Shown: positions 4,199 to 38,972 of the stretch, in pieces
Numbering within the stretch: position 1 is the stretch's first letter
Layout of the letters: each line of letters opens with the position of its first letter
Assembly (NCBI RefSeq): GCF_000024765.1
Contig: NC_013422.1
Span: forward strand, 1,817,501-1,881,500
DNA length: 64,000 nt
Reading direction: 5' to 3'
From: Halothiobacillus neapolitanus c2
GTDB lineage: Bacteria > Pseudomonadota > Gammaproteobacteria > Halothiobacillales > Halothiobacillaceae
The notes under the pieces: model-generated
The model's input: the letters and a program-made list of their open reading frames with translations, nothing else
Told to the model about the DNA's origin: nothing
The model's database searches: none
Position numbers and translations under genes: made by a program

Positions 4199-4322
4199 AA
4201 GCTCGAAATACCAGTCATTCCCGCGTAGGCGGGAATCCAGCGCCTTGATTTTTCCAGCGCTTTGATTTTTCTGGGTTCCCGCTTTCGCGGAAACGACGAA
4301 TCATGGGTATTTCGAAGTGTCC
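4199..4322 (+). repeat. Dispersed palindromic repeat, copy A (dRS3-like core)
   Basis: This copy shares its whole plan with the elements at 13352 and 53551: a CTCGAAA-type outer arm, the core ATTCCCGCGTAGGCGGGAAT, a GGTTCCCGCTTTCGCGG-type second hairpin and a closing GGGTATTTCGA arm. The 20-bp core fits the ATTCCC-N8-GGGAAT pattern of the Neisseria dRS3 repeat. Copy A has an internal duplication of about 18 bp (CCAGCGC[C/T]TTGATTTTT twice). Its right end encodes the last residues and the stop codon of tcdA. Confidence 0.8.
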
Positions 4323-17164: not shown

Positions 17165-19378
17165 ATGACATTACGCCACACTCTCTATACAAAATGCGCA
17201 CTTGGCCTGCTGTGTGCGCTCGCCCTCAACCTGCCCGCCCAGGCCGGCCTGCCCGTTTCAACAACGAATATCGCACTTCCGGCACCCTCTGCCGCCAGCT
17301 CATACAAGCCCGACACAGTGGTCCCCAACGAGGTTCTGGTTAAATTCGGCAGCACGCTATCGGCACAGAACATGACCCCCACGCTGAATAGCATGGCGAG
17401 CAGCGTCAAGCAGATCAACCGTTCGGGTTTGACCTTGGTCAAACTCACGCCCGGCACCGAAACGATTTCATCGGCGATGGCCACGTTACGCGCCATGCCG
17501 GGTGTGATTTCCGTCCAACCGAACTTCATTTACCACAGCACAGCCCTTCCCAACGATCCCGAGATTGGCCAACAGTGGGCGCTGAAAAATATAGGGCAGA
17601 CTGTCTCGAACGCGACCTATGCCACCAGTAATCCGGGCACACCTGGGGATGACATTGATGCAGAAAGCGCCTGGCAATACCAATCCGACTGCTCGTCGGT
17701 CACGGTCGCCGTCGTCGATACAGGTATCAACTACACCCAGCAGGATCTGGTCAACAGCATGTGGAATGGTGGGACTCAATACCCACACCACGGCTATGAT
17801 TTTGTCGATAACGACAATGATCCCTATCCCACAACCGGTGATGAACTCCATGGCACCCATGTGGCAGGCATTATCGGTGCTGAGGGCAACAATGGGATTG
17901 AAGGCTCCGGCGTCTGCCAGAAAGCCAGCATCATGTCCGTGCGCTCGCTGGACTCATCAGGCGGCAGCACAGCAAGTGTAGTTCAAGGCGTTTACTTTGC
18001 CATTGATCATGGCGCTCGAATCATCAATATGAGTCTGGGTGGCAGCGGCGGTTTCGACCAAGACTTCTCCGACGCAATCAGCTACGCCCAAAGCAAGGGG
18101 GCGCTGGTCGTTGTTGCTGCAGGCAATGGCGATGCAAATGGAAATGGCGTTGACGTCGATCAAACCCCTTTTTATCCCTGCGCTTTCCCGCAAGATAACC
18201 TGATCTGCGTCGCTGCGCTGGATCAATCGTTCCAGCTCGCCAGCTTTTCTAATTACGGCGCCACCAGCGTGGATGTGGGTGCGCCGGGAACGAATATTCT
18301 CAGCACGTTTGCAGGACCGACTCTGACAACGGATTTTTCCAGCGGTTGGACGGCCAGCCTGGGTACCAGCACGGGCTGGGGTTACGGGAAAACCACATCC
18401 GGTATCCCGATACTTGTTAATCCGGTTGATTACGGCAAGAGCAATTATGCACCGAGTACAGATGATCGTATCTGGACCGACTTTACGTTTGCACCCGGTA
18501 CACAACACGTTGCTTTAAATTATTACCTGCAAGGGCGCATGGCTACGGGTGATTATCTCAATTCTGGCGTCGCCGTCGGAAGTAATACGGATCCGTTTGG
18601 AAGCAGTGGCACCCAACTCCAACACGAAACGGACACCCTCAGCTCCCCAGCGGCTGCGTACCCGATTGATCAGTGTGCTGGCAAAACGTGTTCGATCGGC
18701 TTCCAGTTGACCAGCACGCCCGTAAGTGCAGGCGACACCGGCCCGCTGATCGCTTTTTTCGAGCTCAATACCGTTGCAACCAACACCCATGAGATGGGTA
18801 TTGAGAACGGCACATCAATGGCGGCGCCCGTCGTCTCCGGCATTGCCGCCTTGTTGATGGCCTCCGACCCGGCCGCCAGCGATATCGACGTCGTCCAGGC
18901 AATCAAAAACTCAGGCATACCGGTGCCTACCCTTTCGGGTGTCACCACAACGGGCAAGGCTGTCAATGCCATGCGCGCGCTTGCCAATCTGCACCTGAGT
19001 GTTACTGGCCTTGCTGACCAAACGGGTACTGCCGGACAACCGCTTTCTGTCACATTCTCCATCAGCGGCTTGAACGCGCTAGCTGTTTCCGCGAGCAGTA
19101 GCAATACTTCTGTATTGGCCAACACCGCAATTACAGGTCAAAACAGTTGCACACAGACAGGGGGCTGTACGCTCCAGCTTCTCCCGGCAATGGGTGGTAC
19201 TTCTACGATCTATGTGACCGTAAGCGACACATTCGGCCAACAGTCGACGGGCAGTTTCCTGCTGACAGTTCCCTCTTCCGGTGGTGGTGGCGGCGGCAGC
19301 ATGAACTGGACTTTCCTGCTGGTACTGGCCGTCATTCTGGCTGCCGGTCAATGGCGCAGGCGAGGGTTGGAATCATGA
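17165..19378 (+). CDS. Secreted S8 serine protease (subtilase) with GlyGly-CTERM anchor
   Basis: The 737-residue preproprotein opens with a signal peptide (about 1-28, ending LPAQA) and a propeptide-like domain (about 52-122, ending VISVQPNFIYH). The subtilisin catalytic domain has the triad D185 (AVVDTGINY), H229 (LHGTHVAGI) and S551 (GTSMAAPVV). An insert of roughly 120 residues separates the sheet core from the serine segment. After an Ig-like stretch the end is a glycine run, a hydrophobic helix and WRRR: the GlyGly-CTERM sorting signal processed by rhombosortase and linked to type II secretion. The stop overlaps the start of a lipoprotein gene. Confidence 0.93.
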   Translation: MTLRHTLYTKCALGLLCALALNLPAQAGLPVSTTNIALPAPSAASSYKPDTVVPNEVLVKFGSTLSAQNMTPTLNSMASSVKQINRSGLTLVKLTPGTETISSAMATLRAMPGVISVQPNFIYHSTALPNDPEIGQQWALKNIGQTVSNATYATSNPGTPGDDIDAESAWQYQSDCSSVTVAVVDTGINYTQQDLVNSMWNGGTQYPHHGYDFVDNDNDPYPTTGDELHGTHVAGIIGAEGNNGIEGSGVCQKASIMSVRSLDSSGGSTASVVQGVYFAIDHGARIINMSLGGSGGFDQDFSDAISYAQSKGALVVVAAGNGDANGNGVDVDQTPFYPCAFPQDNLICVAALDQSFQLASFSNYGATSVDVGAPGTNILSTFAGPTLTTDFSSGWTASLGTSTGWGYGKTTSGIPILVNPVDYGKSNYAPSTDDRIWTDFTFAPGTQHVALNYYLQGRMATGDYLNSGVAVGSNTDPFGSSGTQLQHETDTLSSPAAAYPIDQCAGKTCSIGFQLTSTPVSAGDTGPLIAFFELNTVATNTHEMGIENGTSMAAPVVSGIAALLMASDPAASDIDVVQAIKNSGIPVPTLSGVTTTGKAVNAMRALANLHLSVTGLADQTGTAGQPLSVTFSISGLNALAVSASSSNTSVLANTAITGQNSCTQTGGCTLQLLPAMGGTSTIYVTVSDTFGQQSTGSFLLTVPSSGGGGGGSMNWTFLLVLAVILAAGQWRRRGLES

Positions 19379-19779
19379 AATGTGGCCGTCTAGTCTCTGC
19401 TTCTGTGCTCGCCTTGCTGTTTTCTGGTTGTCAGGGTGTCGGTGGCACCCAGATGACAGGCAAGCCCGTGGCCGACACCCATACTGAGCACAACACCATG
19501 ACCCCTTCCAATCAACCCGTCGCGGGAGAATACCTGATGACGCTCAAGCCGGGCGTGCCGGAAGACGCTCAGACGCTTGCCGATCTTCGGCGTGATCTTG
19601 GCAACTTACCCGTAGTTGCCTTGTCTTCTCTGGGGCACAGATTATATTTGGTCAAAACTCACCCGGACCCGGGTCTGAAAGCGATCCTAGGTACTCTGTC
19701 AAACAGCTCGCTCGTCACATCGATTCAGGAAAATCGGCACTATGGCATTAATCCGCCGGATAGACGGGTGCTGTACTGA
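19375..19779 (+). CDS. Small lipoprotein resembling a detached subtilase propeptide (I9-like)
   Basis: The 134-residue protein starts at the ATG in the ATGA overlap with the protease. The N-terminus is a lipoprotein signal (LLFSGC, lipid-modified Cys at C19). The mature part follows the same pattern as the protease's own prodomain: GEYLMTLKPG aligns with NEVLVKFGS, and LYLVKTHP...TSIQENRHY aligns with LTLVKLTP...ISVQPNFIY. Such domains fold subtilases and inhibit them. A membrane-tethered inhibitor or chaperone for the adjacent protease is therefore a reasonable inference. No catalytic residues are present. Confidence 0.75.
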   Translation: MKCGRLVSASVLALLFSGCQGVGGTQMTGKPVADTHTEHNTMTPSNQPVAGEYLMTLKPGVPEDAQTLADLRRDLGNLPVVALSSLGHRLYLVKTHPDPGLKAILGTLSNSSLVTSIQENRHYGINPPDRRVLY

Positions 19780-38827: not shown

Positions 38828-38970
38828 GCCCTGCCCGGTTTGTGAATTCTGTCTTGGCTTAATTCATGGTTCATTTCATGGTTCATTTCATGGTTCATTT
38901 CATGGTTCATTTCATGGTTCATTTCATGGTTCATTTCATGGTTCATTTCATGGCTCATTTCATAGCTCAT
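38824..38970 (-). CDS. 48-residue repeat ORF (MNHE) between exbD and msbA
   Basis: On the minus strand the first ATG lies two bases after the exbD TAA. The frame reads MSYE, MSHE, then MNHE seven times, then [12 protein letters not shown], and its TGA overlaps the msbA ATG. Start next to a stop and end in ATGA suggest translation by re-initiation from exbD and coupling to msbA. The 12-bp unit keeps the frame whatever the copy number. The peptide is rich in Met, His, Asn and Glu. It has no recognisable homology and may be only a translated spacer; expression is unproven. Confidence 0.4.
   Translation of the reverse strand: MSYEMSHEMNHEMNHEMNHEMNHEMNHEMNHEMNHELSQDRIHKPGRA
38863..38970. repeat. 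Nine 12-bp tandem repeats upstream of msbA
   Basis: Unit TTCATGGTTCAT (plus strand) repeats nine times without a break. Seven copies are identical; the two nearest exbD (38947-38958 and 38959-38970) differ by one and two bases. Such arrays expand and contract by slippage. Each minus-strand unit carries two ATGs and overlapping stop/start signals. Confidence 0.95.
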
Positions 38971-38972
38971 TT

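Follow-up and report, generated by a model that had tools for sequence, protein, structure and literature searches.

A predicted lipoprotein related to subtilase prodomains and encoded beside a secreted subtilase in Halothiobacillus neapolitanus: a probable protease-inhibitor gene pair

What is the role of a small lipoprotein gene that begins within the stop codon of a secreted subtilase gene, and whose product resembles the prodomain of that protease? We asked this question for a stretch of 64,000 nucleotides (the window) of Halothiobacillus neapolitanus c2, whose genome has 2,582,886 bases in a single contig. The features on which the argument draws are listed here; the pair is flanked by unrelated genes on both sides.

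17165..19378, + strand: secreted S8 subtilase of 737 aa (Pfam PF00082, Peptidase_S8, E 1.8e-47)
17288..17542, + strand: own prodomain of the protease, residues 42-126 (PF22148, Fervidolysin_NPro-like, E 1.6e-5, residues 42-120)
19271..19375, + strand: predicted GlyGly-CTERM tail, with a Gly-rich motif, a hydrophobic segment and RRR, from the sequence
19375..19378, + strand: ATGA shared by the protease stop and the lipoprotein start, from the sequence; kept in the Halothiobacillus orthologues
19375..19779, + strand: putative prodomain-mimicking lipoprotein of 134 aa (sequence, profile comparisons, AlphaFold)
19375..19431, + strand: predicted lipoprotein signal peptide and lipobox LLFSG-C19, with Gln at +2 (sequence)
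19519..19752, + strand: prodomain-like domain of I9 topology, residues 49-126 (AlphaFold block with pLDDT 89-93 over residues 51-120; co-linear with prodomains)
19726..19734, + strand: Q118-x-N120, equivalent to the helix-capping Glu69/Asp71 of the BPN' propeptide (alignments; role from PMC6993865)
19741..19758, + strand: tail Y123 (P4) G I N126 (P1), then P127 P128 (P1', P2'), with putative active-site entry and resistance to cutting (tail table and register)

The protease and the overlapping lipoprotein gene

The protease has the layout of a subtilase, with a signal peptide, a prodomain, a split catalytic domain, a C-terminal region and a GlyGly-CTERM tail; both the Peptidase_S8 domain and the prodomain by which we assign it to the S8 subtilases are present. 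AlphaFold models its prodomain as E-H-E-E-H-E (mean pLDDT 79), and cleavage is predicted after residue 126, that is, at Asn120 +6, a register taken from solved cleaved prodomain chains and from PMC6993865.

The preliminary description of this locus had called the protease a GlyGly-CTERM subtilase. Its C-terminus, PSSGGGGGGSMNWTFLLVLAVILAAGQWRRRGLES, does have the tripartite GlyGly-CTERM layout, and the genome encodes a rhombosortase (TIGR03902, G000:C1:172499-172951) that scores 151 bits against a cut-off of 84; the same model passed its cut-off in none of the 14 control genomes. When the protease was scanned with NCBIfam, no curated GlyGly-CTERM model matched and the one match was a weak MYXO-CTERM hit (E 0.066). 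From the tail layout and the rhombosortase, the name probably fits the protease of the window, but the tail does not hold as a part of the two-gene system. Several paired proteases outside Halothiobacillus lack it, which argues that the proposed guard goes with the subtilase and not with the sorting system. Paired proteases of other genera (at L041, L069, L085, L086 and L087) often stop near one shared point (PPTGVxAT..), the sorting tail being absent.

The ATG of the lipoprotein gene at 19375 sits within the protease stop (TCATGAAA). The overlap of stop and start was thus described correctly, coordinates included, as the ATGA at 19375-19378. An alternative lipoprotein start at 19147, from the listed open reading frame, was rejected because it is merely an upstream extension. 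The linker of the lipoprotein is about 30 residues long, and the nearest named relatives are found on two Halothiobacillus MAG contigs, with 94% identity. Scans with Pfam and NCBIfam left the lipoprotein without any match. Neither Inhibitor_I9 (PF05922) nor Fervidolysin_NPro-like (PF22148) matched the window lipoprotein or its 16 relatives, so we do not assign it to these Pfam families. Comparison of close relatives gave a dN/dS of about 0.12 in the lipoprotein gene and 0.13 in the protease gene, and both are therefore under constraint. The lipobox pattern was matched in the window and in 15 other rows of the 18 that were compared, and was unmatched in the genomes G147, which has no lipobox, and G878, where it is atypical; anchoring is thus not universal.

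Two repeats were seen elsewhere in the window. A 12-base tandem repeat (TTCATGGTTCAT; 9.2 copies, 97% matches) lies at 38863-38972, between an ABC transporter (MsbA-like) gene and an ExbB/TolQ-like gene. A short dispersed repeat containing CGTCATTCCCGC occurs at 4213, 13364, 53563 and 53620 (four copies, 0.84 expected), and open reading frames run across it.

Relation of the lipoprotein to subtilase prodomains

The preliminary description had proposed, from the window pair, that the mature lipoprotein follows the protease prodomain in the order of its elements and shares with it the strand motif V-x-S-x-Q-x-N-x-x-Y. The motif is indeed present in both, as VISVQPNFIY in the protease and VTSIQENRHY in the lipoprotein, preceded each time by LVK. 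An HMM built from lipoproteins only was compared with 2,245 ORFs. After the lipoproteins, the only ORFs that fell below the inclusion threshold were the adjacent proteases (E 1.4e-5 to 4e-3), and the best of these matches align to the prodomain from its first through its last strand (residues 47-126 of the window protease). Alignments of lipoproteins and prodomains compared with hhalign gave probabilities of 97.0% (12 against 9 sequences) and 97.9% (17 against 13), with E values of 1.2e-10 and 4.9e-13 as given for one comparison. The match in order is thereby upheld. With the Halothiobacillus sequences alone, hhalign gave a probability of 6%, which is not significant; relatives from outside the genus were needed for a significant profile comparison. 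The likeness read from one sequence pair was therefore correct, yet unprovable from that pair.

In a search of the PDB (177,635 sequences) the top match of the lipoprotein profile was 9rk9_A, a 97-aa chain of a subtilisin-like protease, although its E value of 0.24, or 0.053 with a larger profile, is not significant when taken alone. Four of the five matches of the larger profile below E 10 are short chains under protease names, with E values of 0.053 to 1.4.

The fold was also predicted for the mature lipoprotein alone. AlphaFold gave, with high confidence, the elements E52-57 H65-75 E80-87 E90-95 H101-108 E114-119, that is, the I9/prodomain topology that had been expected of it. The order is the same as in the protease's own prodomain, and the topology is also common to other ferredoxin-like families, so that a fold search alone is not specific. 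Searches with the lipoprotein model (Foldseek and VIA-align) returned generic ferredoxin-like matches; POIA1 ranked 41st and PCSK9 stood in row 50. In a control search with the protease's own prodomain, most matches were generic folds as well, yet 8c4x_B, fervidolysin and pro-subtilisin E appeared in the list. The fold search therefore neither proves nor disproves the relation.

In a joint tree, lipoproteins and prodomains are split with a support of 100/100, and the Halothiobacillus rows branch alike in both halves. The lipoproteins thus form a clade of their own, which speaks against their having arisen lately by duplication of the cognate prodomain, an origin that we reject; we take them to be an old family. 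Judging from the profiles, the mature part of the lipoprotein is homologous to subtilase prodomains of the fervidolysin/I9 type.

Linkage and distribution of the gene pair

The lipoprotein is present in seven of the ten Halothiobacillus genomes of the family sample, and the same seven carry a close homologue of the protease (split over two contigs in one of them), while the other three have neither. Within the genus identity falls to about 35% for the lipoproteins and remains near 60% for the proteases; the ATGA overlap is kept. No second S8 peptidase was found in the window genome (G000), and in G016, G017 and G018, too, the paired protease is the sole S8 found. G012 and G019 lack the mimic; the S8 genes that they carry are different ones. 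A match in G003 (E 0.043, with one stop) was rejected since the profile gave it no support.

Relatives were sought by profile searches that are blind to gene context. They were found in nine further families, and in eight of these a subtilase gene is the direct neighbour, with the same orientation (a rough binomial estimate puts the chance of this at about 7e-23). Hence the two-gene linkage, known at the outset from one locus, is conserved in Halothiobacillus and eight further families. The mimic gene lies downstream of the subtilase with a 4-base overlap in G266, G211, G071, G335 and G848; it follows the subtilase after 3-11 bases in G061, G807 and G878, and lies upstream in G181 and G147. 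In G807 the two genes are in frame with each other; at all 18 loci the mimic is a separate ORF outside the protease precursor. The orphan is found in G737 (L068:7279-7674), after hemC/hemD/hemX/hemY-like genes, and the only S8 of that genome is on another contig, in an open frame of 1858 aa. This mimic away from any S8, like the three Halothiobacillus genomes without the pair, counts against the inhibitor reading proposed below.

The mimic family is rare: about a dozen matches came from two samples, one of the class and one of the phylum, each with several hundred genomes. Weak matches from these samples (G325, G344, G287, G382, G502 and others) align chiefly with the N-terminal part of the model and were set aside as signal-peptide matches; G325 and G344, which were inspected, proved to be unrelated lipoproteins.

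Some loci have further genes around the pair. In G211 (L041:5127-5531) and G071 (L042:9530-9958) a third gene, for a small lipoprotein that is fibronectin-III-like by eye, overlaps the protease start and makes up a three-gene set with protease and mimic. A similar fibronectin-III-like sequence is seen in G807 at the end of the ORF directly upstream (L086:3370-4443). The protease gene of G071 (L042:7757-9533) is apparently frameshifted and its mimic gene intact.

Tail anatomy and proposed function

In complexes of subtilases with their prodomains, the prodomain sheet packs onto two helices of the catalytic domain, which are capped by a Glu and an Asp two residues apart (Glu69/Asp71 in BPN'), and the prodomain tail occupies the groove of the active site, P4 being at Asp +3 and P1 at Asp +6, as for Asp211, Val214 and Asp217 of PfSUB1 (PMC6993865). 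Prodomain tails bind like products and influence inhibitory potency (PMC10580911). The chain lengths of 1scj_B, 1spb_P and 9rk9_A, which we read from these lengths and their names as cleaved prodomains, agree with an end at +6.

By alignment and register, the mimics have both the capping pair and a tail that reaches P1. The Q/E-x-N pair is kept in 16 of the 18 mimic rows and a Tyr at +3 (P4) in 17. In G211, G071 and G335 the protein ends exactly at P1, and five lineages (Halothiobacillus, G266, G147, G878 and G807) have a Pro at P1', often Pro-Pro; G181, G061, G737 and G848, four of the 11 genera, have neither, which counts against the inhibitor reading. A stop at P1 or a Pro at P1' is thus found in seven of 11 genera and in none of nine lineages of cognate prodomains (Fisher 0.004; for the Pro at P1' alone, 0.015), where numbers are small and the tails Pro-rich. 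This anatomy, taken with the product-like binding of prodomain tails, suggests that the lipoprotein is a cleavage-resistant inhibitor acting in trans.

We therefore think that the two genes probably form a protease-inhibitor pair, in which a membrane-anchored, free-standing relative of the prodomain would inhibit the neighbouring subtilase in trans. The reading is based on homology, predicted fold, linkage, co-occurrence, a single clade, purifying selection and the tail register. Binding, inhibition, resistance to cleavage, location and the protective role of the lipoprotein are what we infer; for inhibition and self-protection we rely on the analogy to known prodomains and on the anatomy of the tail.

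The system could work as follows. Protease and lipoprotein would be translated together through the ATGA overlap. While crossing the inner membrane, the protease would be a zymogen that its own prodomain keeps in check, and the lipoprotein would be lipidated and stay in the envelope on its linker. If the protease matured too early, its own prodomain being cut off and destroyed, the sheet of the mimic would dock on the two surface helices and its Q/E-x-N would cap them, with its Tyr filling S4 and its tail lying product-like in S4-S1. This tail would be poorly cut because it ends at P1 or has a Pro at P1', and the producer's envelope would in consequence be protected until the protease exits the cell.

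A Cys-Gln start favours sorting of a lipoprotein to the outer membrane by the Lol system (the +2 rule). The lipoprotein is thus predicted at the outer membrane, where a periplasmic orientation is the default, and from this position its likeliest action would be to guard the periplasm during export, rather than to hold the enzyme on the surface. The protease would pass the periplasm during its export; if its GlyGly-CTERM tail works as in Vibrio (PMC6219818), type II secretion and rhombosortase would be the route.

An alternative, which we consider unlikely, is that the lipoprotein is a helper of folding or export, a membrane-anchored chaperone whose inhibitory effect is incidental. Co-translation and strict co-occurrence fit a helper equally well, and lipase foldases are an example of membrane-anchored, dedicated chaperones of secreted enzymes. 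Prodomains of mesophilic subtilases, moreover, double as chaperones and inhibitors (PMC10580911). However, every paired protease whose N-terminus is in our data keeps its full own prodomain, so that a second foldase is not needed, and tails that end at P1 or carry a Pro at P1' suit occupation of an active site, not folding.

It is less probable still that the lipoprotein is an anchoring or stabilising subunit that keeps the mature protease active at the outer membrane, as PrcB would for PrtP in the dentilisin of Treponema. Binding to the catalytic domain would be expected of a prodomain-like fold, and the dentilisin subtilase has operon-encoded lipoproteins that interact with it and stabilise it (PMC8167434). 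The conserved residues of the mimics, though, include the P4 position and a tail by which the active site would be blocked; the Halothiobacillus protease has a sorting tail of its own and the genome a rhombosortase, which makes an extra anchor unnecessary. Finally, an unrelated ferredoxin-like lipoprotein, prodomain-like by fold only and placed in the operon for some other reason, would agree with the generic fold comparison and with the missing Pfam/NCBIfam prodomain matches, but is strongly disfavoured and very improbable, given that sequence profiles match prodomains specifically and co-linearly and that the gene lies beside a subtilase in eight of nine further families.

The inhibitor reading has counterparts among known systems. 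Stand-alone prodomain-like inhibitors occur in fungi, plants and apicomplexans (PMC6993865); POIA1, the yeast proteinase B inhibitor, Arabidopsis SPI-1, TgMIC5 and Plasmodium SUB1-ProM are, like the mimics, free-standing proteins of prodomain fold. SUB1-ProM also has a Glu-x-Asn capping pair and a product-like tail, and its gene adjoins subtilase genes (PMC6993865). These eukaryotic I9 inhibitors differ in having neither lipid anchor nor operon, and their inhibition has been shown, whereas that of the mimics is expected from their anatomy. The mimic sequence is too distant from theirs for a Pfam I9 match.

Among bacteria, SpeB of Streptococcus pyogenes is a C10 cysteine protease, not a subtilase, and thus belongs to another clan with an unrelated fold. 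As in our pair, the small gene of its inhibitor Spi, reported to be a propeptide analogue, adjoins that of the protease, and protection of the producer has been suggested (PMC2873492). In Bacteroides fragilis, Bfp protease genes are co-transcribed with small inhibitor-like bfi genes, two of them for predicted lipoproteins, but the Bfi proteins are staphostatin-like putative inhibitors of C10 proteases without identity to propeptides (PMC2873492). PopC of Myxococcus xanthus is likewise a bacterial subtilase restrained by a dedicated partner, PopD; the latter blocks PopC secretion and is degraded on starvation, and in the available part of the account it is not described as prodomain-like or lipid-anchored (PMC6434023). 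Dentilisin (PrtP/PrcA/PrcB of Treponema denticola) shares a subtilase with operon-encoded lipoprotein partners; PrcB, however, is required for detection of PrtP, as a stabiliser would be, and has no homologues outside oral treponemes (PMC8167434).

In the open-access literature we found no description of a bacterial stand-alone or lipid-anchored subtilase prodomain inhibitor or mimic; stand-alone prodomain inhibitors were found described there in eukaryotes only. There being no Pfam or NCBIfam model for the family, its genes are probably annotated as hypothetical lipoproteins, which a profile from the 17 gathered sequences would name.

Subtilases find heavy use in industry as proteases, and their prodomains serve as the textbook case of temporary inhibitors, destroyed on activation. 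The recurrence of the gene pair in distantly related bacteria points to an undescribed self-protection from one's own protease. Tentatively, we suggest that envelope-anchored prodomain mimics may be a bacterial family of immunity proteins for co-encoded subtilases, their tails fixed as a ready product or made uncuttable by the P1' Pro, so that a permanent local inhibitor would stand where an ordinary prodomain is digested. If this is true, a separate, lipid-anchored and apparently cut-resistant prodomain would account for the survival of Gram-negative producers when the protease is activated early, in the periplasm, and the family would correspond in bacteria to SUB1-ProM and TgMIC5 and be a source of natural templates for stable subtilase inhibitors.
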